Shown: positions 16,077 to 58,726 of the stretch, piece after piece
How the letters are laid out: each line of letters opens with the position of its first letter
Position numbering within the stretch: position 1 is the first letter of the stretch
From: Candidatus Edwardsiibacteriota bacterium
Lineage (GTDB): Bacteria > Edwardsbacteria > AC1 > EtOH8
Direction of reading: 5' to 3'
Assembly: GCA_020053305.1 (NCBI GenBank)
Contig: JAGVNJ010000077.1
Coordinates: 1 to 64,000 of the forward strand
DNA: 64,000 nt
Program-made: the position numbers and the translations under genes
Notes under the pieces: model-generated
The model's database searches: none
The model's input: the letters and a program-made list of their open reading frames with translations, nothing else
What the model was told of the DNA's origin: nothing

Positions 16077-17348
16077 ATGCTGGATACCAAATTCATCCGA
16101 GAGAACATCGAACTGGTCAAGAAGGCCATCGCCGACAAGGGCGAGAAGGCCGACCTGGGCCCGTTCCTGGAGCTAGACGCCAAACGCCGGGCCATGGTCC
16201 AGGAGGTGGAGGTCTTAAAGGCAGAACGCAACACGGTCTCCGACGAGATCGCCAAACTTAAGAAAGAAAAGTCGCCCGAGGCCGATAAAAAAGTTTTGGA
16301 GATGCGCCAGGTGGGCGATAAGATAAAACTTTTGGACGACGACCTGCGCCAAGTGGAAGAAAAGCTGACCGAGATCACCCTGTCCCTGCCCAATCTGCCC
16401 GATCCCACCGTTCCGATAGGCCAAAGCGAAAAGGACAACGTGGTGGAGAAGACTGTCGGCGAAGAGAAGAAATTCGATTTTGCCCCCCAGCCCCACTGGG
16501 AGCTGGGCGAGAAACTGGATATTATTGATTTCGAGCGGGGGGTGAAAATGTCCGGCACCCGCTTCTATTTATTGAAAGGCGCCGGGGCCCGGCTGCAGAG
16601 GGCCTTGATCGCATTCATGCTGGATGTCCACACCAAAAAGCACGGCTACGGTGAGATCCTACCGCCCTACATCGTTAATCACGACTGCCTGATCGGCACC
16701 GGCCAGCTGCCCAAGTTCGCCGACAACCTGTATCACGATGCCGAGGAGGATTTCTGGCTGATCCCCACCGCCGAGGTGCCGGTGACCAATATGTACCGGG
16801 GCGAGATTTTGGACGGCACCAAGCTTCCGCTCTATCACGTGGCCTATACCGCTTGCTTCAGGCGGGAGAAGATGTCGGCCGGCAAGGATGTGCGGGGCAT
16901 CAAGCGGGGGCACCAGTTCGACAAGGTGGAGCTGGTCAAGTTCTCTTTGCCGGAGAATTCCAATGACGAACTGCAGAAGCTTTTGGCCGACGCCTGCGCC
17001 ATCCCCGAGATGCTGGGCCTGCGCTACCGCGTGGTCCAGCTGTGCACCGCCGACCTGACCTTCTCCTCGGTGAAGACTTACGACGTGGAGGTGTGGGCCC
17101 CGGGGTGTAACGAGTGGCTGGAAGTGAGCTCCTGCTCCAATTTCGGGGATTTCCAGGCCCGCCGGGCCAATATCAAGTTCCGGCGGGAGCCCAAGGCCAA
17201 AACGGAGTTCGTGCATACCTTGAACGGCTCTGGCCTGGCCCTGCCCAGGACCATGATAGCGGTGATGGAGAATTACCAAAACGCCGACGGAAGCATCACC
17301 GTGCCGGAGGTGCTGAGACCGTATATGGGGATGGATGTGATAAAATGA
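16077..17348 (+). CDS. serS: Seryl-tRNA synthetase
   Basis: A 423-residue class II synthetase: an N-terminal coiled-coil arm (~1-110, rich in E/K/R) that grips tRNA-Ser, then the catalytic core with motif 2 FRREKMSAGKDVRGIKRGHQFDKVEL (split around residue 262) and motif 3 ALPRTMIAVMENYQ (~383-396). It charges tRNA-Ser. The C-terminal end PEVLRPYMGMDVIK is complete, but a second, diverged copy of this end lies about 190 bases downstream (17501-17542), so the present 3' end may be a replacement. Confidence 0.97.
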   Translation: MLDTKFIRENIELVKKAIADKGEKADLGPFLELDAKRRAMVQEVEVLKAERNTVSDEIAKLKKEKSPEADKKVLEMRQVGDKIKLLDDDLRQVEEKLTEITLSLPNLPDPTVPIGQSEKDNVVEKTVGEEKKFDFAPQPHWELGEKLDIIDFERGVKMSGTRFYLLKGAGARLQRALIAFMLDVHTKKHGYGEILPPYIVNHDCLIGTGQLPKFADNLYHDAEEDFWLIPTAEVPVTNMYRGEILDGTKLPLYHVAYTACFRREKMSAGKDVRGIKRGHQFDKVELVKFSLPENSNDELQKLLADACAIPEMLGLRYRVVQLCTADLTFSSVKTYDVEVWAPGCNEWLEVSSCSNFGDFQARRANIKFRREPKAKTEFVHTLNGSGLALPRTMIAVMENYQNADGSITVPEVLRPYMGMDVIK

Positions 17349-17357
17349 TTTATCTAT

Positions 17358-17490
17358 CAGCGATACCATTCCGCCAAAGGCGGACAGGAAACAATATCGC
17401 TGGTCAAACATCAAGCCCGGCAAACCGGGTTACCGAGTCAGGCCTCGTAGAGGCCTTGTTGACTTCCAGCGATAGACTTTAGGCTATCGC
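17358..17490 (+). repeat. Array of four hairpins between serS and its duplicated tail
   Basis: Within about 130 bases there are four short perfect hairpins: CCGCC/GGCGG (17371-17383), CCCGG/CCGGG (17416-17429), AGGCCTC/GAGGCCT (17440-17456) and GCGATAG/CTATCGC (17469-17490). The first is enclosed by CAGCGATA (17358-17365) and TATCGCTG (17395-17402), and CAGCGATA recurs at 17468-17475. No open reading frame fits. It may be the ends of a small palindrome-rich mobile element or a structured RNA; a decision is not possible from one copy. Confidence 0.6.
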
Positions 17491-17500
17491 CCAAACCGCC

Positions 17501-17542
17501 AAGGTTTTACGGCCGTTCATGGGGATGGATGTGATAAGATAG
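17501..17542 (+). pseudogene. Second copy of the serS 3' end
   Basis: An open stretch encodes KVLRPFMGMDVIR followed by TAG, clearly homologous to the last residues of the intact SerS (EVLRPYMGMDVIK). The two share the identical 19-base block ATGGGGATGGATGTGATAA (17325-17343 and 17519-17537) but use different codons upstream. Upstream of Lys the frame leaves homology. It is a remnant left by an insertion or recombination event at the gene end. Confidence 0.85.
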
Positions 17543-17553
17543 AAAGTCCAGTA

Positions 17554-17886
17554 ATGAAATCTTTTACGCGCAATGATTGGATTGATCTTTTAAAAAGGGA
17601 CTTAGTCCCTATACCATCTTGTGATTGTGATGGTTTTAGGGAATATGCAAACCCCGAACATTTATTTGTTACTATTAAAACCAAAACAAACAGGAAATGT
17701 ACTTTTGGTGGGCCTGTTTGGTGCGCAATAATTAATATTCACGATAAAAAATATTTGTATGTTGATTACTTAAGCCCTTTAAAAAAGACACGTAGGTTTT
17801 TATGGGATAAAATTGAATCTATTGAATTTCGTTTTGTTACAGATGTTAAACATCCAAGAGATTTATTTTATAAAAATAATACCTAA
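17554..17886 (+). CDS. AT-rich ORFan, unknown function
   Basis: A 110-residue protein that I do not recognise. It has the Cys pair CDCDG near residues 23-27, a hydrophobic strand WCAIINIHDKKYLYVDYL and a basic C-terminal half; no signal peptide or membrane helix. Its DNA is far more AT-rich than all neighbours, with runs of AAA, ATT and TTT codons, which suggests recent acquisition. It starts 12 bases after the duplicated serS tail and ends 20 bases before the methyltransferase, inside the accessory patch. Confidence 0.65.
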   Translation: MKSFTRNDWIDLLKRDLVPIPSCDCDGFREYANPEHLFVTIKTKTNRKCTFGGPVWCAIINIHDKKYLYVDYLSPLKKTRRFLWDKIESIEFRFVTDVKHPRDLFYKNNT

Positions 17887-17906
17887 TACAAATATTATTT
17901 ACATCC

Positions 17907-18536
17907 ATGACCATCTGGGATAACATATACAAAAACTTCCAAAACGGCGGAGAGGCCTGGGCCAGCCTATCGGAAGACATTCACCCCTTATTCAAACAAT
18001 TCCTGGAACACTCGGAATTCATTCTTAAGTACGCTTTGGACATCGGCTGCGGGACCGGCAAATATTTAAAACTCCTCCGGGCCGGCGGATTTAAGACCGA
18101 CGGAATAGATTCCAGCCAAACCGCGGTGGAAATGACCAAAAAGGAACTGGGCAGCGGCTCGGAGATCGTTTGCGCGGACATGTTTGGATACGACATCCCC
18201 AGAGACAGATACGATTTGATCCTTTCGGTCTCGACCATTCATCACGGGACCAAAGAACAGGTACGTTTGTTGGTAAGCAATATATATGAAGCGACCGCAG
18301 AGAACGGAAAGATATTCGTCACCGTGCCCGATCTTGCCAGCAGCAAAAAGTGGAACACCTTCAAGGAGCACCAAAAAATAACCGAGGGCACCTATGCCCC
18401 GTTATCCGGCCCGGAAAAGGGCCTGCCCCACAGCTTTTATGAAGAAAATGAGGTTCGGAAACTGTTCTCCAAGTTCAACGATCTGCGGCTGGACCTGGAT
18501 GACCGCGGCAGGTGGATAATTCAAGCGACAAAATGA
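17907..18536 (+). CDS. Class I SAM-dependent methyltransferase
   Basis: A 209-residue protein with the SAM-binding motif I ALDIGCGTGKYLKLL (~residues 43-57), the acidic loop DGIDSSQTAV and motif IV region YDLILSVSTIHHG. It resembles the TehB/UbiE-like small-molecule methyltransferases; the substrate is unknown. Its stop overlaps the start of a truncated GNAT gene (ATGATG at 18533-18538), so it was probably once cotranscribed with the complete GNAT gene. Confidence 0.88.
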   Translation: MTIWDNIYKNFQNGGEAWASLSEDIHPLFKQFLEHSEFILKYALDIGCGTGKYLKLLRAGGFKTDGIDSSQTAVEMTKKELGSGSEIVCADMFGYDIPRDRYDLILSVSTIHHGTKEQVRLLVSNIYEATAENGKIFVTVPDLASSKKWNTFKEHQKITEGTYAPLSGPEKGLPHSFYEENEVRKLFSKFNDLRLDLDDRGRWIIQATK

Positions 18537-18649
18537 TGAACGATATCCTCATCCGCCCACACCAGCCCGGCGACTCCATACCGGAGATCACCGCCCTCCT
18601 GCACAAGGCCTACGCCGGCATGGCCGGGCAGGAAGTAAAACGAACATAG
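18536..18649 (+). pseudogene. Truncated 5' copy of the GNAT acetyltransferase gene
   Basis: The frame begins MNDILIRPHQPGDSIPEITA and stops after 37 codons. Bases 18550-18632 match 19555-19637, inside the intact GNAT gene, at 81 of 83 positions. After GMAGQ the sequence diverges to EVKRT and a TAG stop, where the Bro-N unit begins. It still overlaps the methyltransferase stop, so this looks like the original start of the GNAT gene cut off by the insertion. Confidence 0.88.
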
Positions 18650-18665
18650 AAAAGTGAGGTATAAA

Positions 18666-19508
18666 ATGGCAGACAGCCTGCCGCTTGCCGTCTTTGAAAA
18701 TTATAAAATACGCAGGATCTACGATGAAAAAGCCGAATCTTGGTATTTTTCGGTTATTGACATAATTGCGGCTTTGATCCAGCAGCCCAACCACCAAGCC
18801 GCCCGGAATTACTGGAAAGTCCTGAAAAACCGGCTTAAAAAAGAGGGCAGCCAAACGGTTACAAAATGTAACCGTTTGAAGATGCCCGCGGAAGACGGAA
18901 AGCTCCGCATCACCGACTCGGCCGATGCCGAAACCCTGCTGCGGCTGATCCAATCCGTTCCCAGTCCCAAGGCCGAACCCATCAAGCTTTGGCTGGCTAA
19001 AGTCGGCTATGAGAGAATTCAGGACATGGGGGATCCTGCGCGATCGCTGGACCGCGCCCGGCAGTACTGGCAGCAGCACGGGCGGAGCGAAAAATGGATC
19101 CAGCAGCGGATGATGGGCCAGGAGACCCGCAACAAACTTACCGACTACTGGAAAGACCATGAGATCAAAGACGAAGACGAATACGCCATCTTGACCAACA
19201 TCATCCATCAGGAATGGAGCGGCGTGTCGGTAAAAAAACACAAGAAGATCAAGGGCCTTAAAACCCAAAATCTGCGCGATCACATGAGCGAAGCCGAGCT
19301 TATTTTTACCGCCCTGGCCGAACTATCCAGCCGCCAGATCGCCGAAAGCGTCGAGGCAACCGGAATGACTGAGAACGCCGAGGCGGGACAAAAGGGCGGG
19401 AAAATCGCCCGAAAAGCACGGCTATCATTGGAACGGAAAACAGGCAAGCGGGTTGTTACCGGCGAGAATTTTTTGCCTCCGGCCAAGGAAAATAAAAAGC
19501 TGAAATAA
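18666..19508 (+). CDS. Bro-N domain protein (antirepressor-like)
   Basis: A 280-residue protein with an N-terminal Bro-N domain (~5-100; IRRIYDEKAESWYFSVIDIIAAL and an AARNYWKVLKNRLKKEG core) and a helical C-terminal region resembling DinD-type proteins (DHMSEAELIFTALAE, then a Gly/Lys-rich GQKGGKIARKAR). Bro-N proteins bind DNA and are common in phages as antirepressors, but also occur as orphan chromosomal genes. The ATG at 18666 has GAGGT about 9 bases upstream; a GTG at 18654 is the alternative. It lies between 83-base direct repeats of the GNAT 5' end. Confidence 0.88.
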   Translation: MADSLPLAVFENYKIRRIYDEKAESWYFSVIDIIAALIQQPNHQAARNYWKVLKNRLKKEGSQTVTKCNRLKMPAEDGKLRITDSADAETLLRLIQSVPSPKAEPIKLWLAKVGYERIQDMGDPARSLDRARQYWQQHGRSEKWIQQRMMGQETRNKLTDYWKDHEIKDEDEYAILTNIIHQEWSGVSVKKHKKIKGLKTQNLRDHMSEAELIFTALAELSSRQIAESVEATGMTENAEAGQKGGKIARKARLSLERKTGKRVVTGENFLPPAKENKKLK

Positions 19509-19525
19509 CCTTCCGGCTTAATGGA

Positions 19526-20062
19526 ATGAACAATAACGCATCCAAAGAAATAATCATCCGCCCATACCAGCCCGGCGACTCCATACCGGAGATCACCGCC
19601 CTCCTGCACAAGGCCTACGCCGGCATGGCCGCGCAGGGCATGCGCTACCTGGCCTCCCACCAGGATGATCAGACCACTTTGGAGCGCCTCATCATTGGCG
19701 CTTCATTTTTAGCCGTAAAAGAAAACGCCATCGTCGGCACCATTACCCTCTACGGGCCGTATCCGGAGGCCGAGGCGTCCCTCTACCGGCAGGAGGGCGT
19801 CAGCCATTTCGGCCAGTACGCGGTGGACCCGGACCTGCAGGGCGCCGGCCTGGGCAAAAGGCTGTACCAAACCGTGGAGGACCATTGCCGGAAGAATAAC
19901 ATCAAAACTCTGGCTCTGGACACCTGCCAGGATGCGGCTGACCTGATAGAGATGTACCGGCACTGGGGCTTTAAGCAGGTGGACCATGTGCAGTGGGACT
20001 GCACCAACTACCGCAGCGTGATAATGGCGAAAGATCTGACCGCCCCTCCATCCCCTCCTTGA
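19526..20062 (+). CDS. GNAT family N-acetyltransferase
   Basis: A 178-residue acetyltransferase. Motif A is FGQYAVDPDLQGAGLGKRLYQTVEDHC (~residues 93-119), containing the acetyl-CoA loop Q-G-A-G-L-G. The substrate is unknown. The N-terminus (MNNNASKEIIIRPYQPGDS) differs from that of the truncated upstream copy (MNDILIRPHQPGDS), then becomes almost identical, so this copy probably received its first codons with the inserted unit. The stop codon lies inside a 24-base palindrome. Confidence 0.9.
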   Translation: MNNNASKEIIIRPYQPGDSIPEITALLHKAYAGMAAQGMRYLASHQDDQTTLERLIIGASFLAVKENAIVGTITLYGPYPEAEASLYRQEGVSHFGQYAVDPDLQGAGLGKRLYQTVEDHCRKNNIKTLALDTCQDAADLIEMYRHWGFKQVDHVQWDCTNYRSVIMAKDLTAPPSPP

Positions 20063-20074
20063 TCAAGGAGGGGA
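20051..20074. repeat. 24-base perfect palindrome at the GNAT stop
   Basis: TCCCCTCCTTGA and its reverse complement TCAAGGAGGGGA meet without a spacer. The GNAT stop codon TGA (20060-20062) is inside. It is followed by CCAAAGGGGTGG, giving a common C-rich intergenic repeat. It could act as a weak transcript end or stabiliser; there is no following T-run. Confidence 0.6.
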
Positions 20075-20101
20075 CCAAAGGGGTGGTGAAAGGAACCGAA
20101 G

Positions 20102-20881
20102 ATGAACTCCATTTTCCTGCTGGCAGCCCTCTCCCTGCTGGGCCTCTACAGCGAGCCCCACCTGACCCTGGAGTTCGCCGGCCCGGCCGCGGTCGATGCC
20201 GCCGGCCAGCGGGCGCTGTTCTTTGCCTTCGTCCAGGCGCACCGCCCGGCTAAGGGCCTGGCGGCCTTTCCCGACGGCGGCCGCCCCAGGATCCTCTACA
20301 AGAATGTTTCGCTTTATCAGATGGATATCCCCGAAGGGACTTTGAAAAGACTTTACGACTTCGGCCCCCTGCCGCTGGCCAGATCCGCCTGGAACTGCCG
20401 GGCCTTTTATGAGGGCGATTCGGTGCGGTTTAATCTGGAGCCGGTCAGCGGCTGGCAGCAGAATCTCAAGTGGAAGCGGGTGGATACGGCTTCATACCAA
20501 AAATATCATACCTGGTTTGTCATTGATCCCGCCACCGGAGTTGTATCCCCGACCGATCCGGCCGGCAACGCCCCAAAAGTCGGCCCCGGATTCCCCTTAA
20601 GCCGGATCAGACAATTTTGCGAAAACATCACCTGGGGGCAGTGGGGCATCGAGCTGGACAGCATCTGCCCGGCCGGCAAAAAAGAGCGGATAGAGCAACT
20701 GACCGGACTGAAGGGAAATCAGAACTACCGGGATGCCTTGGTCGAGCAGCTTTACGGCCGGCTGGAGAAGAATGAGGCCCGGAAGATCGTTTCCGCGATC
20801 CGGAAAGACCGGCCGGGATCGCCGGCGGCCAAGGAGACCGTCGCCAAACTGCGCCAAATCTTTCAACTGGAGGACGAATGA
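20102..20881 (+). CDS. Exported protein of unknown function
   Basis: A 259-residue protein with a short hydrophobic N-terminus (MNSIFLLAALSLLGLYS) that may be a signal peptide. I do not recognise the fold. The middle is rich in aromatic residues (FYEGDSVRFNLEP, TWFVIDPATGVVSPTDPAG) and the last 60 residues are helical and charged. Its stop overlaps the start of the discoidin-like gene by 4 bases, so the two are cotranscribed and may work together at the cell surface. Confidence 0.72.
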   Translation: MNSIFLLAALSLLGLYSEPHLTLEFAGPAAVDAAGQRALFFAFVQAHRPAKGLAAFPDGGRPRILYKNVSLYQMDIPEGTLKRLYDFGPLPLARSAWNCRAFYEGDSVRFNLEPVSGWQQNLKWKRVDTASYQKYHTWFVIDPATGVVSPTDPAGNAPKVGPGFPLSRIRQFCENITWGQWGIELDSICPAGKKERIEQLTGLKGNQNYRDALVEQLYGRLEKNEARKIVSAIRKDRPGSPAAKETVAKLRQIFQLEDE

Positions 20882-21912
20882 TCTTCAGATGGTTCCTGGC
20901 CCTCCTGTCCCTGACGGCCGCCACGGCTTTGGCCCAGGACTGGGTAGAGATAGCCCTGAGCGGGGCGGAAGGCCAGTATCATAACGCCAGCTCCCAGCTG
21001 GGCGCCAGCGAAGGGTGGGAGGATACGGAGGCCGGCCGAAAGTACGGGGCGGCAAACCTGGTCGACTGGGACTTCTCCACCACCTGGGCCGAGGGCGACC
21101 CGGGAGACGGCATCGGCCAAACGGTGTGGATAGAGATCCCGCGGGACTGCCGGGCCTTCAACATTTTTTCCGGCTACGGCAAAAGCCGGGGGCTTTACCT
21201 GAAGAACAACCGGCCCAAACGGATCAAGCTTTCCTGCTATGCCGGGGTCAGCCCGCCGGGCTATGTCACCGAGATCGCTCGGTGCTTCCGGGCCCTAAAA
21301 TACCCCGGCGATCTTTATTTTGACCTGAAGGACACCTTCGGCCTGCAGAGCTTCTCCTTTCCGGTGGCCTACCAAGACCTGGAGGATCTGCTGCACAAGG
21401 TCCAGGCCGGCTCCCGCCCGAGCGACAGTCTGCCGCCGGACCCGTCCTGCCTGATCCTGCGGCTGGACATAGTAGAGGTATACCGGGGCACCAAATGGAA
21501 CGACGCCTGCATCTCGGAAGTTTTCTTCGGCAGCATTTACGTGGCGGACGACCGCCGCCCCGGATTTGCCGGGGCCAAAAATATCCGGGTGGACCCCAAA
21601 AACGAGGGCCGGATCCTGGCCGACCTGCCGGGGAAGAAGAATGTGGTGATCTATAGCGACCCCGGTTATGTGCTGGTCCTGGCCGAGATCTCGCCCAGCC
21701 TGCGCTGGGCCACCGTCATGCGGATGGATGCCGGGCCCGGAGCGGGCCGCCGGCAGACCGAATGGCTGCTGTTTGATATCCCCAACGGAAAGGTAGTGAA
21801 CCGGGAATTTGAGAAGGCCACCGGGATCCCCCTATCCGGCCCCTTCTTCCTGGTGCAAAAGGGAGGCCGGCTGGTCCTGGATGTCTCGTCAATCGAGATA
21901 TCCCTTTATTGA
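20878..21912 (+). CDS. Secreted protein with discoidin/NPCBM-like domain
   Basis: A 344-residue protein with signal peptide MIFRWFLALLSLTAATALA. Residues ~20-225 match the NADase-type glycan-binding or discoidin-like family: NLVDWDFSTTWAEGDPGDGIGQ, then a jelly-roll with YLKNNRPKRIKL and ending KWNDACISEVFFG, the typical closing motif. Such modules bind carbohydrate. The C-terminal 110 residues are of unknown type. It is coupled to 20102-20881 by a 4-base overlap. Confidence 0.82.
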   Translation: MIFRWFLALLSLTAATALAQDWVEIALSGAEGQYHNASSQLGASEGWEDTEAGRKYGAANLVDWDFSTTWAEGDPGDGIGQTVWIEIPRDCRAFNIFSGYGKSRGLYLKNNRPKRIKLSCYAGVSPPGYVTEIARCFRALKYPGDLYFDLKDTFGLQSFSFPVAYQDLEDLLHKVQAGSRPSDSLPPDPSCLILRLDIVEVYRGTKWNDACISEVFFGSIYVADDRRPGFAGAKNIRVDPKNEGRILADLPGKKNVVIYSDPGYVLVLAEISPSLRWATVMRMDAGPGAGRRQTEWLLFDIPNGKVVNREFEKATGIPLSGPFFLVQKGGRLVLDVSSIEISLY

Positions 21913-22039
21913 TCCAGCCGCTCAAAAGATTGACCGCTAAACGTTATCCGGGCAAAATAGGGGTTAGGTCACAACCGTAAGGGCAATTCATGAATTGCCC
22001 CAACAATGAATATGAACAACCATTACTATGGAGGGAAAA

Positions 22040-22336
22040 ATGAAATACAAGAATGCTCTGTGGGCCACTATCCTGTTCATCGCCCTGGCCACCCTGACCG
22101 GCTGCATCCCCGGCGACGGCCGCAACACCGTCCAAAAACCAGCCGGGTTCTTCTGGGGCATCTGGCACGGCTGGGTGGCGCCCATCTCGCTGATAATCAG
22201 CATCTTCAAGAAGAACATCCGGCTGTATGAGGCCTTCAACAACGGCTGGCTGTACGATTTCGGGTTCTATATCGCGGTCATCAGCGGGTTCGGCGGGCTG
22301 TCGCTGTTCCGCCGCCGGAAATCGTCCTGTAAATAA
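22040..22336 (+). CDS. Small membrane lipoprotein, unknown function
   Basis: A 98-residue protein with a lipobox (ALATLTGC, ~residues 16-23), then the motif KPAGFFWGIWHGWVAPISLI with a membrane helix, and a second helix near the C-terminus (FGFYIAVISGFGGLSLF) followed by RRRK. This small conserved family is found in many bacteria without known function. The start at 22040 has GGAGGG 5 bases upstream. It is followed by a palindrome-rich terminator region. Confidence 0.8.
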   Translation: MKYKNALWATILFIALATLTGCIPGDGRNTVQKPAGFFWGIWHGWVAPISLIISIFKKNIRLYEAFNNGWLYDFGFYIAVISGFGGLSLFRRRKSSCK

Positions 22337-22339
22337 AAA

Positions 22340-22398
22340 CCTCACCCCTGCCCCTCTCCTAATGCTTTAGGAGAGGGAAGTCGTAAGGCAGGGTGAGG
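22340..22398. repeat. Nested palindromic intergenic repeat
   Basis: An inner hairpin with arms CCCTCTCCTAA (22352-22362) and TTAGGAGAGGG (22367-22377) lies inside outer arms CCTCACCC (22340-22347) and GGGTGAGG (22391-22398). The inner 26 bases are repeated exactly at 26962-26987, again followed closely by GGGTGAGGTC. It is a dispersed repeat of this genome. Confidence 0.75.
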
Positions 22399-22404
22399 TC
22401 GGTC

Positions 22405-22432
22405 AAAGAGGCATGTTTAATCATGCCTCTTT
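22405..22432. terminator. Bidirectional terminator between convergent genes
   Basis: Arms AAAGAGGCATG and CATGCCTCTTT with a 6-base loop, followed on the plus strand by TCTTT. It separates the small lipoprotein gene from the convergent radical SAM gene. Confidence 0.8.
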
Positions 22433-22435
22433 TCT

Positions 22436-23698
22436 TTATCCCAAATAGGGGTTGAAATAATCTATCTTCGTTTTGGGCGTTTCCCTCCTGAACAATTTGA
22501 TCAACTCCGCGATCCCGATGGCCCGGCCCTTGGGCCGGGGGATGGCTCTTATGTACCACCAGGGATCTATGGACAGATTCCTCATCTGGACCATGTCCAC
22601 CCTGTACTTGGCGAATAATTGTAAAAGCCCGGCCGCCTCCTGCTCCCTATCGGTGTATCCCGGGAAGACCAGCAGGTTGATGCTGACGAACAGCCCGTGG
22701 TCCTTGGCGGTCTTGATGCTCTTAAGCACATCGGAATATTTATAATTGACCGGCCGGTAGTAGGTATCGTAGCATTTCTTGATGGAGGAATTCAGGCTGA
22801 TGCGCACCGAATCCAGTCCGGCGCTTGCCAGGGCCTTTATCCTCTGCGGGCTGTAGCCGTTGGTGTTCAGGTTGATGGTCCCTTTAGCGGTTTGCTTCCG
22901 GATCAGTTTGACGGCTTTCCCGATGGTCTCCGATTGCAGCAGCGGCTCGCCCTCGCAGCCCTGCCCGAAGCTGGCGATGGGCGAAGGCGCATTCTGCAGA
23001 TGGGGAATGGCTATTGAAGCTATCTCCTGCGGGCTGGGCACGAAAGCCAGCCGGTCCTGTGAGGCGCAGCAGCCCTCCTTGCCGGCCGGCTGCCATGACA
23101 GGCAACCCAAACACCGGGCATTGCAGGTAGGCGAGGTGGGCAGGGGCAGTTCCCAGCGGCGGTAAAAGGTGTTCTTTCCGGCAAAGCAGTGATATTCCAG
23201 GGCGCAGCGGGCCAATTGTTTTAACAGCCGGTTGTTAGGCTCATCTTTTAGCCGCTGTTCCACCAGTTTGATGAGTTTTTTATCCTGCTCCGGACTGTGC
23301 AGCTCGGGGTCGGCCTTGGGATTCTTGGCCACCAATTTGGCCGCTCCGCAGATCTTTCCCTTATGCCAAGCCACCGCAGTGTAGGACCACAGCGGAAGCA
23401 GCGGATCGGGTGACCGCTCCACATAGGCCGGCATCAATGTCCGGGTGTACCCAGCCGGCATGAAGGCCGCCACCGGATAGATCCTTTTATTCCCTATCTT
23501 TTCCAGGTAGACCGGACTGCCCTCCCTTTGGGCAACAATGATCCCCTTTTTTATCACAAACAGCTCGCTGCCCTCCGGCAGGGGCACCATTTCGCTGGCC
23601 GGGATGGGGACCAGGTCCCCGCCGGACAGACCCAGGGCCTGGTGTTGGGCGGAATCGAAGATCCGGCCCCTGGCATCGGCGTAAAGTAGATTTGGCAT
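22436..23698 (-). CDS. Radical SAM protein, unknown function
   Basis: A 420-residue protein. The [4Fe-4S]/SAM motif is CNARCLGC (Cx3Cx2C, ~residue 195 in the chosen frame), followed by glycine-rich INLNTNGYSPQRI and DSVRISLNSS, as in the MoaA-like/SPASM-related family. An N-terminal ~180-residue extension with many prolines is unusual. No substrate or peptide partner is seen beside it. The ATG at 23698 sits 6 bases after a consensus -10, so the mRNA is probably leaderless; longer frames to 23803 run through the promoter. Confidence 0.85.
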   Translation of the reverse strand: MPNLLYADARGRIFDSAQHQALGLSGGDLVPIPASEMVPLPEGSELFVIKKGIIVAQREGSPVYLEKIGNKRIYPVAAFMPAGYTRTLMPAYVERSPDPLLPLWSYTAVAWHKGKICGAAKLVAKNPKADPELHSPEQDKKLIKLVEQRLKDEPNNRLLKQLARCALEYHCFAGKNTFYRRWELPLPTSPTCNARCLGCLSWQPAGKEGCCASQDRLAFVPSPQEIASIAIPHLQNAPSPIASFGQGCEGEPLLQSETIGKAVKLIRKQTAKGTINLNTNGYSPQRIKALASAGLDSVRISLNSSIKKCYDTYYRPVNYKYSDVLKSIKTAKDHGLFVSINLLVFPGYTDREQEAAGLLQLFAKYRVDMVQMRNLSIDPWWYIRAIPRPKGRAIGIAELIKLFRRETPKTKIDYFNPYLG

Positions 23699-23704
23699 AC
23701 CGTG

Positions 23705-23733
23705 ATTATACGGAATATTGGAGAATTTGTCAA
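23705..23733 (-). promoter_or_regulatory. Perfect consensus promoter, probable leaderless start
   Basis: On the minus strand the exact TTGACA (23733-23728), 17 bases, then the exact TATAAT (23710-23705). Only 6 bases separate the -10 from the ATG at 23698, so transcription should begin at or next to the A of the start codon. Confidence 0.85.
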
Positions 23734-23770
23734 ACAGGCGCGACTGGTTGATTAACAATAAAAATAGTTC

Positions 23771-23800
23771 TTGACAAATATGTCCCGGGAGGTTTATTAT
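23771..23800 (+). promoter_or_regulatory. Promoter of the large secreted protein gene
   Basis: TTGACA (23771-23776), 18 bases, TATTAT (23795-23800), with GGAGG further down at about 23841-23846 and the ATG at 23853. It is divergent from the radical SAM promoter. Confidence 0.65.
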
Positions 23801-26961: not shown

Positions 26962-27002
26962 CCCCTCTCCTAATGCTTTAGGAGAGGATGGAGGGTGAGG
27001 TC
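26962..27002. repeat. Second copy of the CTCTCCTAATGC palindrome
   Basis: The 26 bases 26962-26987 are identical to 22351-22376, and GGGTGAGGTC (26993-27002) follows as in the first copy. The spacing to GGGTGAGGTC differs between the copies (5 versus 14 bases). Confidence 0.75.
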
Positions 27003-51633: not shown

Positions 51634-51644
51634 TAGGAGCATCA

Positions 51645-52208
51645 ATGAACGTCAAGGGAACCGCACTGGCGGTGCTGCCGATCTTCATCGAGAGCAAATT
51701 CGGCAAAGAGGGCCTTAACAAGTGGCTGGAATCGCTGAATTCCGAGGCGGCGGCGCTGTACCAAAACGCCAACACCGTCAAGATCAACCATTGGTACCCT
51801 TTAAAGGAAAGCTACCTTGAGCCGACGGCGGCCCTGTGTGAGCTTTTTTACAACAATGATCCCCGGGGGGCCTGGGAGGTGGGGCGATTCAGCGCCGATT
51901 TCGCCCTGAAGGGCGTTTACAAGGCTTTTGTCAAAATGACCTCGGTCAGCTTCTTCATCAAGCGGGCCAGCCTGCTGATGACCACCTACTACCAGCCCAG
52001 CAAAATGGAACTCAAGTCGTCCACCTACAGCCAGGCGATCCTGCATATGACCGAATTTCCCGAGGCTCACCACCTGATAGAATCGCGCATCGGGGGATGG
52101 GTCCAGCGCGCATTGGAGATCCACGGCTGCAAAGAGGTGGCGGTGGATATAACCCGCTCCCTGGCCAACGGCGATTCTCTCACCGAGTTTATTTTAAGCT
52201 GGAAATAA
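51645..52208 (+). CDS. TIGR02265/heme-NO-binding-like small-domain protein
   Basis: A 187-residue cytoplasmic protein of helical character: VKGTALAVLPIFIESKFGKEGLNKWLESL, then ALCELFYNNDPRGAWEVGRFSADFALKGVYKAF and a C-terminal WVQRALEIHGCKEVAVDITRSLANGDSLTEFILSW. The pattern resembles the TIGR02265/V4R-HNOB-like family often found as stand-alone sensors. No heme His in the expected place is certain. It lies 30 bases before parB with an AGGAG site 6 bases before the ATG. Confidence 0.68.
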   Translation: MNVKGTALAVLPIFIESKFGKEGLNKWLESLNSEAAALYQNANTVKINHWYPLKESYLEPTAALCELFYNNDPRGAWEVGRFSADFALKGVYKAFVKMTSVSFFIKRASLLMTTYYQPSKMELKSSTYSQAILHMTEFPEAHHLIESRIGGWVQRALEIHGCKEVAVDITRSLANGDSLTEFILSWK

Positions 52209-52237
52209 TTTCGACACATCAGAATATTGGAGCCACC

Positions 52238-53119
52238 ATGACCGCACAGAAAAGAGGCCTGGGAAAGGGCCTGTCGGCCCTGATCCCGGCCAAGAAGACC
52301 GCTGCCACCGTAATAACACATCATCCCGAAGGCATCGAACGTTTCCTGAAGCTGGCCGAGATCAAGCCCAACCGCTTTCAGCCCCGCCGCACATTCCGGG
52401 AGGCCGAGCTTACCGAACTGATGGACTCCATCAAAGAGAAGGGGGTCATCGAGCCGGTGATCGTCCGCCGCAGTGGCTCTGGATACGAGCTGATCGCCGG
52501 GGAGCGCCGCATCCGGGCCTGCCAGAAGCTGGGCCAGGAGAAGATCCCGGCCATCATCCGTCAGGCCACCGACCAGGAGGCCCTGGAGATAGCGCTGATA
52601 GAGAACATCCAGCGGGAGAATCTAAACCCCATTGAGGAGTCCCGGGGCTACGAGCGGCTGGCCAGGGAATTCAGCCTGACCCAGGAGGCTTTGGCCAAAA
52701 AGGTGGGCAAGGAAAGGTCGACCGTGGCCAACAGCCTGCGCCTTTTGGCCCTGCCGGAAGAGATCCAGAAAATGCTGGAGGACGACAAGCTGACCGCCGG
52801 GCACGCCCGGGCCCTGCTGATGGTCAGCGACAAGCGAAAACAGATGGCCCTGGCCCAGAACATAGTCTCAAAGGGCCTGTCGGTAAGGGAGGCCGAAAGC
52901 CTGGCCAAGGGGGAGCCTATCAAATCTGCCTCTGCTTCCCCAAAAAACCCCAAGCAATTGGATCAACATCTGACCAATATCCAGAACGAGATCCAGCGGA
53001 CCTTCGGCACGAAAGTGCGGATAGTGCCTCAGGGAAAGAGCAAGGGTAAGATCGAGGTGGAGTATTATTCGGCCGATGATTTTGAGAGGATCCTGCAGAA
53101 ACTCAATATCAAGTTATAA
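52238..53119 (+). CDS. parB: Chromosome partitioning protein ParB (Spo0J)
   Basis: A 293-residue protein. The N-terminal ParA-stimulating peptide is KRGLGKGLSALIP. The CTP-binding box has GERRIRACQKLG, then ENIQRENLNPIEESRGY, followed by the HTH (LTQEALAKKVGKERSTVANSLRLL) and a C-terminal dimer domain. It loads at parS sites and slides as a CTP-dependent clamp. Two parS sites lie at 34.1 kb. The start at 52238 is set by the family N-terminus; longer frames overlap the previous gene. Confidence 0.97.
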   Translation: MTAQKRGLGKGLSALIPAKKTAATVITHHPEGIERFLKLAEIKPNRFQPRRTFREAELTELMDSIKEKGVIEPVIVRRSGSGYELIAGERRIRACQKLGQEKIPAIIRQATDQEALEIALIENIQRENLNPIEESRGYERLAREFSLTQEALAKKVGKERSTVANSLRLLALPEEIQKMLEDDKLTAGHARALLMVSDKRKQMALAQNIVSKGLSVREAESLAKGEPIKSASASPKNPKQLDQHLTNIQNEIQRTFGTKVRIVPQGKSKGKIEVEYYSADDFERILQKLNIKL

Positions 53120-53173
53120 AATTTTAGGCACGACATAAAGACCGTGCCATATTTTTATCCAAAAGGAGAGTAT

Positions 53174-55621
53174 ATGGAGGGATTGATCGTATTGTTAGCT
53201 TTGGCAATAATCGCCCTTCCGGTAGTAGCGATCGTTGTTAATTTCAAGACCCATAAGATCATCCGGCAGCACTTGTTCGATATGCGGACAGATCTTGCCA
53301 GAATCGGCTCCTCCCTGGAAGATCTAAAAAAAGCCGTCCGTTCCCCGGGCATCACAGACCAACCCGCCACGGCTCCACGGGAACCACCAGTGCCGTCGGA
53401 TGCGACAGTTGAAATCAAAGCCCCCTCGGCGGCTCCTGTCTTCTCGGAAAAAGAAAGCCCACCTGCCGGAGTTTCGGTTACAGCAGAAAAAACCGGGACT
53501 GCGGTTCCGCCACTTCCTTCTTCGCCAGCCGCGCCAAAATCGCACACCATAGAGAACATCGAGGGCGCCTTGGCCAAGATCTGGAACTGGCTGATAGTGG
53601 GAGAGGAATACCGCAATCCTAATGTTTCGATGGAATTCGCCGTGGCCAGCACCTGGCTGCTGCGGGTTGGGATCGTGGCATTGGTGGTGTGCGTGGGATA
53701 TTTTTTGCGTTGGTCGATCGACAAGGGCCTGCTTGGCCCAGCAGGGCGGGTAACCCTGTCAATCCTGGCTGGATTGATCATGCTGGCGGCGGGAGTTCGC
53801 ACCGTCGGCAAAAAATACCATTTGCTGGGCCAGGGGTTTCTGGGCGGCGGCCTAGCCTGCCTCTATTTTGCTATGTATGCCGCCGGACCGATGTACGCCT
53901 TGGTGCCGACCGCGGCTGCCTTCGCGTTGATGTGCTTGGTGACGATCACCGCCGGAGGCCTGGCGGTGATGACCCGGTCGCAACTGGTGGCCATTCTGGG
54001 CATCGTCGGCGGATACGCCACGCCGGTGATGCTGCGGACAAACCAGCCCAATCTGCCAGTGCTGTACCTGTACCTGCTGCTACTGAGCCTGGGGGTGCTG
54101 GGAATAGCCCACCGCCAGCAGTGGCGGCTGCTCAACTATCTGGCCTTTCTGTTCAGCTGGGGGATATTTTTGGGAAGCCTCGACAGCTACCGGCCCGAGG
54201 AGCATTTTACCCTGGCCATAGTGTTCCTCACCCTGTTGTTCGTGCTGCAGTCGGCCACCGTGTATTTCTATAACCTGATCCGTAAAAGGCCGTCGACAGC
54301 ATTGGAAGTCATTCACCTGCTGCTGAACGGCCTGGTGTTCGCCTCAATTTCCTATCACTTGATCATAGAGGCCCGGGGCCGCCCCTGGCCGGCGGTAATG
54401 TGCGTGGCCCTGGCCGTGTTCTACGCGGCGCACATCACCGTCTTTTTGAAGAACCGGATCAATGACCGGCCGTTGCTAATAGCCTTGCTGGGACTGGCGG
54501 GATTTTTCACGGCGCTGGCTATACCGATCTTAACCGAACGAGAATCGATGACCATCTGTTGGTCGCTGCTGGCGTTTTTCTTTTTATGGGCCGGCCAGAA
54601 ACTCCATAGCAACGTTCTAAAAACCATGTCCTCAATCTTGTATCTATTGGTAATCGGACGGCTATATTTTCTTGATATCCCCCGAAATTTCTCGCATCTC
54701 GATTGGATGGCCCAGCCGCAGGCTATCTATTGGAAAAGCTTTTTCGGCAGGTTCTGGACATTCGGCATCTCTATCGTTTCATTCTTCGCTTCGGCACTGC
54801 TGTACCGACGCAAACAGGAGGGAACATATTCTGTCGGTCCAGGAATCGATATCAAGCCGGTGGGGCAGGATGGTGCCATGGGCCATGCGGCCTTCTGGAT
54901 CGGGGTGGTGGCATTTTTCACCGTTGCTTATCTGGAACTGGCACAGATGTTCAGTTATTTGCCGCCTTTCCGGACGCCGGTCCTTACCTGTCTGTGGGCA
55001 CTGCTGGGCCTATACCTTTTGCGATATTTTCTGGCGGAGCATAAATCGGTTTACCGTACCGGCGCTATTTGCATTCTAATAGTAACGGTCGTTAAACTTT
55101 TATTCATCGATATCCCCGGATGGCACTATGGGTCGATTGCGATGGCCGGCGGCGACCACCTAACCGGCATGCTGGTCAGGACGCTAGACTGGGGGGCGGT
55201 GCTGGTCATGTTTTACCTGTTTGCCCGATCCGTCCGCGGTAGCAAGGAGCCAGAAAATCTTTATTCCGTATTAAAGGTGGCTGGTACGGCCCTATTGTTC
55301 CTGTATGCCAGTTTCGAGACCGACGCCTTTTTTCACTGGCAAGTGCCGGACTTTCGAACCGGTTCAATATCGGTGCTGTGGGCGCTGTTCGCCATCAGCT
55401 TCATTGCTATAGGCATCAGGAACGCCGGAAAGGGGTGGCGCTATGCCGGGTTGATCCTTTTCGTAGTGGTGGTGGGAAAGGTTTTTTTCTCGGACCTGGC
55501 CGGCATGGCTACCATCTACCGGGTTTGGGCCTTCATGCTGGTGGGGCTACTCCTCATCGCCGGGGCCTTCGCCTACATCAAGGCCAGCAGAAATTTCACC
55601 GCCAAAGAGGTCAAACAATGA
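53174..55621 (+). CDS. DUF2339 multi-pass membrane protein
   Basis: An 815-residue protein. It has one N-terminal helix, a short coiled region and a Pro/Ala/Thr-rich linker (~60-130), then more than 20 membrane helices typical of DUF2339, starting VASTWLLRVGIVALVVCVGYFLRWSID. Function is unknown. In many genomes DUF2339 is paired with DUF3999, as here, with a 4-base overlap. The ATG at 53174 has AAGGAG upstream. Confidence 0.9.
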   Translation: MEGLIVLLALAIIALPVVAIVVNFKTHKIIRQHLFDMRTDLARIGSSLEDLKKAVRSPGITDQPATAPREPPVPSDATVEIKAPSAAPVFSEKESPPAGVSVTAEKTGTAVPPLPSSPAAPKSHTIENIEGALAKIWNWLIVGEEYRNPNVSMEFAVASTWLLRVGIVALVVCVGYFLRWSIDKGLLGPAGRVTLSILAGLIMLAAGVRTVGKKYHLLGQGFLGGGLACLYFAMYAAGPMYALVPTAAAFALMCLVTITAGGLAVMTRSQLVAILGIVGGYATPVMLRTNQPNLPVLYLYLLLLSLGVLGIAHRQQWRLLNYLAFLFSWGIFLGSLDSYRPEEHFTLAIVFLTLLFVLQSATVYFYNLIRKRPSTALEVIHLLLNGLVFASISYHLIIEARGRPWPAVMCVALAVFYAAHITVFLKNRINDRPLLIALLGLAGFFTALAIPILTERESMTICWSLLAFFFLWAGQKLHSNVLKTMSSILYLLVIGRLYFLDIPRNFSHLDWMAQPQAIYWKSFFGRFWTFGISIVSFFASALLYRRKQEGTYSVGPGIDIKPVGQDGAMGHAAFWIGVVAFFTVAYLELAQMFSYLPPFRTPVLTCLWALLGLYLLRYFLAEHKSVYRTGAICILIVTVVKLLFIDIPGWHYGSIAMAGGDHLTGMLVRTLDWGAVLVMFYLFARSVRGSKEPENLYSVLKVAGTALLFLYASFETDAFFHWQVPDFRTGSISVLWALFAISFIAIGIRNAGKGWRYAGLILFVVVVGKVFFSDLAGMATIYRVWAFMLVGLLLIAGAFAYIKASRNFTAKEVKQ

Positions 55622-56994
55622 AAATATTAACTGCAACGCTTCTGCTTTGCACCTTCGCCGTATGTCAGGGCTCCGTCAAACCGAATGACTTCAGATACTG
55701 CAAGGAGCTAGCAGCCGGAGACAGTCTGAAATCGGATGTCGGCGTCTTCAGTCTCGACGGCGATATCTACCGCAGCACCCAAGGAGACCTCTCGGACATC
55801 CGTTTGGCCGGGCGCGGCCTGCGCGAGGTGCCCTATCTCCTCCGGCTGGCCACCCGCACCGACACGGTGACGGTCCGTTATCCGATCGGGCTGGAGACCA
55901 TCAACTTCAAGGAAGGGCCGGACAACAGCATCACCATAATCCTCAGCCGCAAGGAGACCGATTCCATCCCGGACGAGCTGGAGATCCGGACCCCGAACTC
56001 CAATTTCGAAAAGAGCGTCTCGGTTTATGGTAGCAAGGACCGAGCTGACTGGCAGGCCCTGGCTGTCAGTCAACCGATATTCGATTATTCGCGGTACATC
56101 GATGTCCGCAACACCAACGTTTTCCTAAAAGGCCCGGCCTTCTTCTATTACAAGGTGGTGGTAGGAACTGCGGTCGAGGTCAAGCGGTCGCCCTTCAGCC
56201 AGATCGTAACCCAGACCGGGGCCCGGCCGGGGGTGCGCTACGAGTCTTTTATGCAGAACGCCGAACCGTTCCGGATCGAGCAGGCCGAGTTCTTCGGGGT
56301 CAGGGCCGAGGTCCGGGCCGCCAACCCGCTGCAGGTTGACCATCCCCTTCCGGTGACGTCCTCGGCTTCGGACACGGTGGAAAAGGCGACGCTGATCTAT
56401 TGCCGGTCAGACCGGCAGCCTATCAACGAGATCCGCCTGTCAACCGCCAGCCGGATTTTCCGGCGGCAGGTTCTGGTGGAGGGCACGGACGATACATCCA
56501 AAACCGCTGACTGGACCAAATTGGCCACAAGTATCGTGCAACGGCTGAAGATGGGAGCCTTTCGCCGGGAGAACCTGAGCATTCCGCTGGAAGGATGGCA
56601 ACGATATTTGCGATACCGTCTGAGTATTGCCAATGAGGACAATCCTCCCATCGAGGTAAGCGGGGTTACGGCAAGGGGCGGCGTCCACCAGGTATTTTTC
56701 TTTCATAATCAGGACGAAACCCTGACGGTGTATTACGGCGGAGTGGATATCAAACCGCCGCGATATGATGTGGCGGCCATGCTGGTCGACATCCCCGGGG
56801 TTGTGGGCGCACAATGGCACCTGGGAGCGCAGCTGCCGGCAAATAAAAATGGGCCGGCCCGGCGCAGGCCGTGGCTCAGTCCCCAAAACATCCTGATATG
56901 CTCGCTGGTTGTTATGGTTGGTGTGCTGGCCGTGGTGCTGTTTCTGACAGTTAAAAAAGTTGAGCAGTACACTGCCCAGAAAAGTGAACAATAG
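55618..56994 (+). CDS. DUF3999-type membrane-anchored protein
   Basis: A 458-residue protein with a signal peptide (MKILTATLLLCTFAVCQG), a long periplasmic beta-rich region with discoidin-like pieces (NSNFEKSVSVYGSKDRADWQAL, ASRIFRRQVLVEGTDDTSKTADWTKL) and one C-terminal membrane helix (~430-450). This is the DUF3999 layout. It is coupled to the DUF2339 gene and probably binds it. Ligand and function are unknown; a cell-envelope polysaccharide is a fair guess only. Confidence 0.87.
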   Translation: MKILTATLLLCTFAVCQGSVKPNDFRYCKELAAGDSLKSDVGVFSLDGDIYRSTQGDLSDIRLAGRGLREVPYLLRLATRTDTVTVRYPIGLETINFKEGPDNSITIILSRKETDSIPDELEIRTPNSNFEKSVSVYGSKDRADWQALAVSQPIFDYSRYIDVRNTNVFLKGPAFFYYKVVVGTAVEVKRSPFSQIVTQTGARPGVRYESFMQNAEPFRIEQAEFFGVRAEVRAANPLQVDHPLPVTSSASDTVEKATLIYCRSDRQPINEIRLSTASRIFRRQVLVEGTDDTSKTADWTKLATSIVQRLKMGAFRRENLSIPLEGWQRYLRYRLSIANEDNPPIEVSGVTARGGVHQVFFFHNQDETLTVYYGGVDIKPPRYDVAAMLVDIPGVVGAQWHLGAQLPANKNGPARRRPWLSPQNILICSLVVMVGVLAVVLFLTVKKVEQYTAQKSEQ

Positions 56995-57030
56995 TTCCCA
57001 TGATTTGGTAATTTGAATTAGGAGTACGTT

Positions 57031-57150
57031 ATGGATATTACGACGGTTTCTATACAGAAACCGGATGAAATCAACTTCATCCTGGGCCAGACCCACTTCA
57101 TCAAACCGGCAGCCCCGGGCGGGGATCAAGAAATGAAGAAATCACTATAA
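57031..57150 (+). pseudogene. Truncated 5' copy of the adenosine-specific kinase gene
   Basis: The frame starts at an ATG with a TAGGAG site 6 bases upstream and encodes MDITTVSIQKPDEINFILGQ then THFIK. Of the first 25 residues, 17 are identical to the intact gene at 58244; the bases ATCAACTTCATCCTGGGCCAG-type core (57070-57090) are identical to 58283-58303. After FIK it diverges and stops after 39 codons. It looks like the original gene start, cut by the inserted RhuM unit. Confidence 0.88.
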
Positions 57151-57165
57151 TGGCAGGCGGCAGTG

Positions 57166-58179
57166 ATGAATAAAAATCCATCAACATTCATTTTGTTCAA
57201 AACCGAGGACGAAAAAATATCGGTGGATGTCCGGCTTGAAGACGATACGGTTTGGCTGTCGCAGGAGCAAATGGCGATATTGTTTGAAAGAGACAGGACG
57301 GTAATTGTCAAGCATATTGGTAACATTTTTTCGGAAGGTGAACTGGAAGAGAAAAGCAATGTGCGTTTTTTGCACATTGCAAATTCTGATAAGCCGGTAA
57401 AAATATACAACCTGAATGTAATCATTTCCGTAGGCTACCGGGTAAAATCGCAGAGGGGAACCCAGTTTCGCATTTGGGCCACCAAACGGCTTAACGAGTA
57501 CATCCGCAAAGGTTTTACCCTGGACGATGAACGCCTGAAAAATCTGGGCGGCGGCGGCTATTGGAAAGAGCTGTTACAGCGCATTCGCGACATTCGCGCC
57601 TCCGAGAAGGTGTTTTACCGCCAGGTGCTCGACATTTACGCCACCAGCATTGATTATGACCCCCGGGCCGGCATTTCCATTGAGTTTTTCAAAAAAGTAC
57701 AGAATAAAATCCATTATGCCGTCCACGGACAAACGGCTGCCGAGGTAATTTTCAACCGCGCCGACGCCGAAAAGGATTTTATGGGCCTGATGACCTTCCC
57801 GGGCAGCCGGCCGTATCTAAAAGACGCAGTGGTGGCAAAAAATTACCTGAACGAAAAGGAGCTCCGCTCGCTTGGCCAGATAGTTTCCGGATATTTGGAT
57901 TTTGCCGAGCGTCAGGCCGAACGCGAACAGGCGATGACAATGAAAGACTGGGCCGCCCATTTGGACAAAATACTGATCATCAGCGGGGAAAAGCTGCTGC
58001 CGGGGGCCGGCGCCGTCAGCCACGAAAACGCCATTGAAAAGGCGGTCGCGGAATACAAGAAATACCAGCATAAAACATTGAGCGCAGCGGAAAATAATTA
58101 TCTGGAGAGCCTGAAGGAATTGGAGACCAAAAGCAAACCGCCTGCGCTCAGGCCCAAAAAGGGCAGGGTTAATAAATGA
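57166..58179 (+). CDS. RhuM family protein
   Basis: A 337-residue protein of the virulence RhuM family (PF13310). The N-terminal DNA-binding part has DDTVWLSQEQMAILFERDRTVIVKHIGNIF and YNLNVIISVGYRVKSQRGTQFRIWA. The C-terminal region is a helical Fic-like extension with DPRAGISIEFFKKVQNKIHYAVHGQTAAEVI. The biochemical role is unknown; it occurs on islands and next to phage or defence genes. It sits between a truncated and an intact copy of the adenosine kinase 5' end. The ATG at 57166 follows GGCGG; a GTG at 57163 is the alternative. Confidence 0.92.
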   Translation: MNKNPSTFILFKTEDEKISVDVRLEDDTVWLSQEQMAILFERDRTVIVKHIGNIFSEGELEEKSNVRFLHIANSDKPVKIYNLNVIISVGYRVKSQRGTQFRIWATKRLNEYIRKGFTLDDERLKNLGGGGYWKELLQRIRDIRASEKVFYRQVLDIYATSIDYDPRAGISIEFFKKVQNKIHYAVHGQTAAEVIFNRADAEKDFMGLMTFPGSRPYLKDAVVAKNYLNEKELRSLGQIVSGYLDFAERQAEREQAMTMKDWAAHLDKILIISGEKLLPGAGAVSHENAIEKAVAEYKKYQHKTLSAAENNYLESLKELETKSKPPALRPKKGRVNK

Positions 58180-58243
58180 GGCAACGAGAAAAAATATTTC
58201 ACGCCCGGCGATACGTTAATCCGATACATAGGCAGATATACCC

Positions 58244-58726
58244 ATGACCCAACACCTCGTCCCCATCCAAAAGCCCGAGGATATCAACTTCATCCTGGGC
58301 CAGTCGCATTTCATTAAGACCGTGGAGGATCTCTACGAGGCCCTGGTCTCCTCGGTTCCCGGCATCAAGTTCGGGCTGGCCTTCTGCGAGGCCTCCGGAG
58401 CCTGCCTGATCAGATCCGATGGAACGGATAAAGAGATGATCGAGCTGGCGTGTGAGAACGCCAAGAATATTGGAGCCGGTCATAGCTTCATCATTTTCTT
58501 AAAAGACGTATTTCCCATCAACATCCTCAACGCCGTAAAGAACTGCCCGGAGGTCTGCCGCATCTACTGCGCCACCGCCAATCCCTGCCAGGTGATCGTG
58601 GCCGAAAGCGAGCAGGGGCGGGGCATAATGGGGGTGATAGACGGCTTTGCCCCCAAGGGCGTGGAGGATGACGAGGGCATCAAGTGGAGAAAAGAGCTTC
58701 TGCGCAAGATCGGGTATAAACGATAG
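58244..58726 (+). CDS. Adenosine-specific kinase (DUF355)
   Basis: A 160-residue protein of PF04008, full length: [77 protein letters not shown] and [16 protein letters not shown]. Members phosphorylate adenosine or were assigned so from archaeal homologues. The N-terminal seven residues differ from the truncated upstream copy, so its start may have been supplied by the RhuM unit. The 64 bases before it hold no strong promoter. Confidence 0.92.

Follow-up and report, generated by a model that had tools for sequence, protein, structure and literature searches.

The window analysed here, i.e., the whole stretch of 64,000 nucleotides (nt) at the beginning of contig JAGVNJ010000077.1 of Candidatus Edwardsiibacteriota bacterium, contains two solitary genes of the Bro-N and RhuM families, both candidates for phage defence, each situated between a truncated start of a conserved gene and a full copy of the same gene. 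The Bro-N gene lies at a GNAT acetyltransferase gene and the RhuM gene at the gene for an adenosine-specific kinase; a third, weaker duplication concerns the 3' end of serS. The two units are organized as follows:

18533..18649, + strand: truncated GNAT start of 38 codons with a native-type N terminus; first repeat copy at 18549-18632.
18654..19508, + strand: Bro-N gene (Pfam) with its ATG at 18666; candidate PDC-S13 of the PADLOC library; its structural model matches DdrC.
19526..20062, + strand: full GNAT acetyltransferase gene (Pfam) with an unusual N terminus; second repeat copy at 19554-19637.
57031..57150, + strand: truncated resident start of the adenosine-specific kinase gene, 39 codons, with a 5' leader orthologous to the empty site of genome G001; first repeat copy at 57052-57108.
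57163..58179, + strand: RhuM gene (Pfam); PADLOC candidate PDC-S05; among solved structures, DdrC matches its model best.
58244..58726, + strand: full adenosine-specific kinase gene (Pfam) with a leader unlike those of eight aligned relatives; second repeat copy at 58265-58322.

At the GNAT gene, the two repeat copies are identical at 82 of 84 nt (97.6%), with an E value of 2e-34 in the self-comparison of the window. The truncated copy reads MMNDILIRPHQPGDSIPEITALLHKAYAGMAGQEVKRT* from position 18533 on, and the only gene between the copies is that of Bro-N (Pfam 30.9 bits against a cut-off of 25.6). Ahead of a conserved motif of the IIRP/ILIRP type, eight residues are found in the working GNAT, and four in the fragment as well as in five relatives.

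At the adenosine-specific kinase gene, the copies agree at 47 of 58 nt (81%; E value 1e-6 in the same self-comparison), and again a single gene, RhuM (Pfam 347 bits), is located between them. The sister genome G001, which belongs to the same genus, possesses an uninterrupted kinase locus and thus the empty site of the RhuM unit (locus L071): window positions 56800-57105 correspond to its bases 5335-5640, and positions 58263-58798 to its bases 5585-6121, such that the two stretches overlap in G001 by 56 nt, which represent the duplication, single in the empty site. The kinase fragment and its leader are orthologous to G001, whereas the leader of the working start is unrelated; moreover, the working start is nearer to the genomes G002 (50 of 54 nt) and G003 (49 of 54) than to the fragment (43 of 54) or to G001 (44 of 54). 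The fragment is therefore taken to be resident, and the working start looks imported. The duplicated host-gene starts that a first-pass annotation of this DNA had described around both genes are thus real, in the case of RhuM with an empty site to match.

Concerning the 3' end of serS, the copies are placed upstream of the GNAT unit:

16077..17348, + strand: serS, intact (Pfam, repeat comparison), the 3' end of which (17308-17346) is the first repeat copy.
17502..17540, + strand: isolated second copy of the serS 3' end, nearer to the serS end of G003 than to the resident serS.

This pair (39 nt, 79% identity) is absent from the self-comparison list of the window at E 0.01 and, taken alone, is not beyond chance; it is, however, backed by relatives. 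With the serS end of G003, this second copy shares 95% identity across 40 nt, as compared to 79% of 39 nt with the resident serS, and G003 and G006 exhibit clear serS 3'-end duplications around open reading frames (ORFs) of 222 and 218 amino acids (aa). The mirror case proposed at serS by the first-pass annotation thus draws its support from these relatives, the pair in the window being weak on its own. Judged by its similarity to G003, the copy that looks imported at serS would be the fragment and not the working end. Chance was ruled out for the GNAT and kinase repeats by their self-comparison E values and for the family enrichment described below, though not for serS alone.

When ten genomes of the window's family are compared, the same places are found to harbour different cargo. 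Upstream of the adenosine-specific kinase gene, G001 contains nothing, G002 an ORF of 281 aa, G006 two ORFs, and G000 RhuM; the ORF at this position in G009 is one that we take to encode a DNA methyltransferase. Upstream of GNAT, G008 possesses an HNH gene and a second GNAT-like gene, and in G002 a RelA-like gene (PADLOC candidate PDC-S33) is accompanied by a NUDIX 3' remnant that adjoins GNAT. In G006, a GNAT start fragment, a second GNAT-like gene, another GNAT start fragment, a NUDIX-like gene and the full GNAT gene follow each other. The GNAT fragments stop after different codons, and therefore no fixed crossover site exists. The NUDIX-like 3' end of G002 (L065, 5484-5574) lies just before the GNAT start, and the gene is intact in G006, i.e., in another genus; the GNAT hotspot appears to keep right-hand remnants of earlier cargo.

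Upstream of sucC, a Bro-N/DinD gene is found in both G008 (repeat of 76 nt) and G009 (repeat of 69 nt), and in G008 it is enclosed by a sucC start fragment and the full sucC. The Bro-N protein of G008 is DinD according to NCBIfam (396 bits against a cut-off of 242), and no NCBIfam model matches the Bro-N protein of the window. In G002, G003, and G000, the sucC of this locus is reduced to a start remnant with other ORFs before it; in G000, a 151-nt piece of Bro-N/DinD (L205, 1339-1489), 96% identical to G008 of another genus, stands beside this remnant. In G009 (L080, 6048-6180), the sucC start runs into apparent last codons and then into a sucD-like start, its middle apparently being lost. That the sucC-start fragment belongs to a travelling unit was considered and dropped: the locus and the upstream gene are the same in both genera, so that the fragment is a remnant of an older sucC. 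Further repeat-marked cargo in the family includes a toxin-antitoxin pair in G009, around which 70 nt of a peptidase 3' end are duplicated with 90% identity (L074, 2991-3060 and 3703-3772) and which we presume to be BrnT/BrnA-like, as well as, in G004, a presumed M16-like peptidase gene and a Fic gene at what is presumably a polA-like start.

The frequency of such repeats was determined by a scan, a symmetrical form of the test proposed in the first-pass annotation, in which, for each complete gene of at least 300 nt, the flanks of 500 nt on either side were aligned locally with each other as DNA, with a score of at least 44. The first sample comprised the window, four more stretches from its family, and 60 stretches of other genomes that surround PF13310 and PF02498 genes; in five of these 65 no target gene was called, and 58 of the 65 target hits entered the test. 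Flanking repeats were present at 8 of 26 RhuM and 8 of 32 Bro-N genes, and at 17 of 573 other genes and 5 of 373 mismatched flanks; the excess of both families together over their neighbours (16/58 versus 17/573) is significant (Fisher p = 1.2e-9) and persists without the window's family (12/51 versus 16/473, p = 1.9e-6). Two of the loci, L079 and L080, probably represent one event, and counting them once gives 15/57. In the second sample (80 named GTDB loci, 72 of them tested), 11 of 72 RhuM genes were flanked as compared to 13 of 465 other genes (p = 7e-5); one of the 11, L377, consists of tandem RhuM paralogues, and without it 10/71 remain (p = 0.00025). The two samples may share organisms, and the loci tested are the best-scoring matches, not all matches. 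The enrichment expected by the first-pass annotation is thus found in both samples.

This enrichment is not exclusive to these families. On equal terms, repeats flank 9 of 29 RhuM, 8 of 35 Bro-N, 4 of 28 ORF6N, 5 of 28 Fic, 0 of 12 Abi_2, and 1 of 27 N6/N4 methyltransferase genes; 13 of the 172 loci were dropped from this comparison, and its RhuM and Bro-N genes are largely those of the first sample and do not form a further one. Fic and ORF6N, too, exceed their neighbouring genes, no excess over neighbours was found for Abi_2 or for the methyltransferases (PF01555), and RhuM plus Bro-N exceed the pool of Fic, Abi_2, and methyltransferase genes (17/64 versus 6/67, p = 0.011). A specificity to antirepressor-like families was accordingly ruled out by the flanked Fic and ORF6N genes. 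In viral contigs (IMG/VR), to which 78 of 80 RhuM and 40 of 60 Bro-N loci contributed, 24 and 4 being dropped before the count, the excess is small: 3 of 54 RhuM genes (neighbours 6/224) and 3 of 36 Bro-N genes (neighbours 2/138) are flanked, i.e., 6/90 versus 8/362 (p = 0.04). Carriage by phages was rejected as an explanation on the ground of this lower flanked fraction.

The 27 repeat pairs found at RhuM and Bro-N genes, L377 again included, are between 25 and 111 nt long (median 68, with the shortest repeats excluded by the score threshold), and the identity between copies ranges from 77% to 100%. A called end of a neighbouring gene is touched by 21 of the 27, as against 686 of 1300 random placements (p = 0.011). 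Right-hand gene starts are involved in 16 pairs, 3' ends of left-hand genes in 10, and other ends in 5 (a pair may be counted twice), such that the mirror cases anticipated by the first-pass annotation do occur beside the gene starts. The ends concerned include what are presumably an rlmD-like end (in two genomes), a tgt-like end, a helicase-like start, and a DNA polymerase IV-like start. At L353 (5755-7526), the duplicated target around RhuM is the start of a Bro-N gene; here, a candidate-defence gene would have been inserted where a second one begins.

In two genomes, which we take to be Bacillota, RhuM is located at the 3' end of what we read as an rlmD/rumA gene, and the starting points of the repeats nearly coincide; these two cases could be members of integrase-made elements. 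In Escherichia coli KKo009 (L532, 3064-4634), RhuM directly follows selC (tRNA-Sec), and behind it 28 nt of the selC end recur as a partial copy, at a distance of 1.22 kb from the selC end itself. At least 80% of this stretch is present in 839 of 5426 E. coli genomes. Beyond the selC copy, further short RhuM-like repeats are found in the two E. coli genomes that were read, and the locus is not a clean single unit. Some RhuM match exists in 4442 of the 5426 genomes, in most of them just a short one, and K-12 possesses a 130-nt RhuM remnant at the same place after selC; E. coli was therefore discarded as an empty-site test, as the comparison shows decay and not a fresh gain.

The explanation that we favour, at about even chances, is that single accessory genes are imported on DNA carrying its own short copy of the end of the neighbouring gene, and become integrated through a short homology on one side or in the form of a small circle. 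The incoming DNA would carry, beside the cargo, a copy of around 25-110 bp of the end of the gene that the cargo now adjoins. This piece, or a small circle formed from it, would recombine with the resident gene solely at the short gene-end homology, either by a one-sided homologous join or by a Campbell-type crossover, the other junction being illegitimate. The resident gene would thereby retain a working end, and the other copy would persist as a fragment on the far side of the cargo. Conserved gene ends would become hotspots for such repeats both by the homology shared among donors and recipients and by selection against insertions in the middle of genes. Observed directly are the duplications, the empty site, the differing cargo at the hotspots, the variable break points, the enrichment and, in two of the three cases of the window, the likeness of one copy to another species, whereas donor molecules and recombination steps are what we infer here; the resemblance of one copy to a related species at the adenosine-specific kinase gene and at serS suggests that the cargo probably came on DNA with its own gene end.

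Several observations weigh against this explanation. No donor molecule has been seen, and the species comparisons of the copies rest on just 40-54 nt. In the window's family, three of the seven RhuM and Bro-N genes tested lack a flanking repeat (four have one), 6 of the 27 repeat pairs lie away from any called gene end, the second sucC copy in G009 is no longer a working gene, and the two rlmD-like cases and the selC case are situated at gene ends of the kind used by integrases. The two GNAT copies share 98% identity, but each just 79-88% with five relatives, and the second copy begins within the gene, which has an unusual N terminus; both features would fit a duplication made within the species. 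With regard to import on foreign DNA, the GNAT unit might be read as a join inside the gene with DNA from the same or a very close strain.

A true insertion with long target duplication, in which the event copies tens to around 100 bp of the target such that both copies stem from the recipient, is possible but clearly the less probable explanation. The GNAT copies, nearly identical to each other, far from the five relatives, and with a second copy that begins in the gene with a new start, are compatible with it, as are the copies at L165, identical at 58 of 58 nt, and repeat lengths that fall among those given for restriction-modification genes ('in the order of 100 bp' in the passage concerned of PMC3874152). 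The adenosine-specific kinase and serS copies are not, as they resemble different species, and the identity between copies spans the whole range from 77% to 100%. For restriction-modification genes, long and variable target duplications of around 100 bp that involve no mobile element have been described in the relevant parts of PMC3874152, PMC3031569, and PMC1643837, which cite Nobusato 2000 and Furuta 2010, so that the statement of the first-pass annotation that it knew of no described system with this signature for these families is not supported (PMC3874152, PMC1643837). As there, a locus is gained here between long and variable direct repeats and without a transposase; the differences, as far as those parts of the sources go, are that their known cargo is restriction-modification whereas Bro-N or RhuM stand alone here, that one copy is like another species in two of the three window cases, and that the repeats favour gene ends. 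The present finding extends this kind of duplication to solitary Bro-N/DinD, RhuM, ORF6N, and Fic genes, with a quantified enrichment and a bias towards gene ends.

Alternatively, though this is unlikely, the solitary genes might be remnants of integrative elements that have lost their integrase, the repeats then being attL and attR at gene ends. Elements bounded by att sites and without an integrase (cis-mobilizable elements, CIMEs) are known, and rumA is a known target of serine-integrase elements at an internal site (both in the parts consulted of PMC5704250). CIMEs share with the present units the direct repeats at gene ends, the restored target gene, and the missing recombinase. The RhuM gene after selC with its partial selC-end copy and the near-identical repeat start in the two genomes with RhuM at a presumed rlmD/rumA 3' end point in the same direction. 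Compared with what that source describes, however, the present units comprise one gene of around 1 kb, have variable break points and are found at gene starts too, not at ends alone; in the cases inspected individually, just RhuM or Bro-N is called between the repeats and no integrase, the fixed crossover site expected of integrase-made elements is not found at GNAT, where break points vary between units, and the commonest class is that of right-hand gene starts (16 of 27). Still less probable is an ordinary turnover of cargo in which the conserved genes on both sides recombine and repeats are left over, without any special link to RhuM or Bro-N: the repeats at Fic, at ORF6N and at other cargo of the window's family would agree with it, whereas the excess of RhuM and Bro-N over the pooled Fic, Abi_2, and methyltransferase genes and over neighbouring genes would not. 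Import, target duplication, and att remnants may each play a part, the GNAT unit supporting true target duplication or DNA of the same species, and the rlmD-like and selC cases att remnants.

Import with a gene end carried on the incoming DNA resembles in its anatomy homology-facilitated illegitimate recombination, a one-anchor insertion with displaced remnants that is given as a model for the type VI secretion system arrays of Vibrio cholerae (PMC5361080) and is also reported in E. coli conjugation (PMC3240628). As described in the relevant parts of these publications, the common features would be one conserved anchor, one illegitimate junction, displaced remnants, and successive insertions beside the anchor gene. 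The anatomy of the present units would fit, although what is displaced here is just a short end of a gene, and the cargo consists of a single one. In E. coli, S. aureus, and S. pyogenes, flanking repeats are stated for 10-18% of variable segments, 66-94% of the repeats being shorter than 30 bp (PMC2884548, in the part concerned), as compared to the median of 68 found here with a threshold that drops the shortest.

A homing mechanism, which the first-pass annotation had considered, finds no support, since break points vary and Pfam detects no nuclease domain in the Bro-N and RhuM proteins at E values up to 0.001. For the AlphaFold models of the two proteins (mean pLDDT 81.5 and 87.3), the best match among solved structures is in both cases DdrC of Deinococcus. 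The Bro-N model matches it with a Foldseek E value of 4.6e-7 and a Z of 14.5 (219 residues, root-mean-square deviation 12.2; next unrelated structure Z 6.8), the RhuM model with 4.5e-4 and a Z of 8.6 (192 residues, deviation 16.9; next unrelated Z 6.6). Identity is 8-18% over the Foldseek alignments and TM-scores are at most 0.48; from the large deviations and low TM-scores it follows that parts match in a different arrangement, and helical models can reach such Z values through common arrangement. In profile searches, the three best hits of Bro-N are DdrC (E 0.016-0.024, weak; the fourth, unrelated, E 0.1), no DdrC was found with RhuM, and the RhuM profile, compared directly with that of Bro-N, did not match it significantly (probability 0.5%). 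The gap in Z to the next structure and the weak profile hit argue for a kinship of Bro-N with DdrC; the corresponding case for RhuM is weaker.

According to the part of PMC5436757 concerned, DdrC of Deinococcus radiodurans binds DNA in both single- and double-stranded form, converts linear plasmid into circles, and anneals 67-mers. By comparison of models, its fold may be common to the Bro-N and RhuM proteins of the window; circularisation and annealing are properties of DdrC, the two proteins being known here from their sequences and models. The likeness suggests that RhuM and Bro-N genes might promote their own insertion. In a far-reaching version, which we regard as a long shot, RhuM and Bro-N/DinD would be related to DdrC and would act by holding, circularising, and annealing DNA ends; they would circularise incoming or outbreaking DNA together with a piece of the neighbour's gene end and promote its re-insertion via around 70 bp of homology, and thus constitute one-gene mobile elements in which an end-joining and annealing protein replaces the transposase and the target gene is left working.

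If the import on DNA with its own gene end is true, a common class of solitary candidate-defence genes spreads by short gene-end homology, without transposase or integrase, which would help to explain why such genes are placed alone beside conserved genes. The truncated gene end provides a simple, computable mark of gene gain, and the resemblance to DdrC would give two DNA-binding families a concrete and testable biochemical function.

Two further ORFs of the window belong to the variable cargo that separates serS from GNAT:

17554..17886, + strand: ORF of 110 aa without Pfam match (ORF call, synteny).
17907..18536, + strand: methyltransferase-like ORF (Pfam).

Outside the units, an exact, hairpin-like and terminator-like repeat of 26 nt is found at positions 22351-22376 and 26962-26987, 4.6 kb apart.

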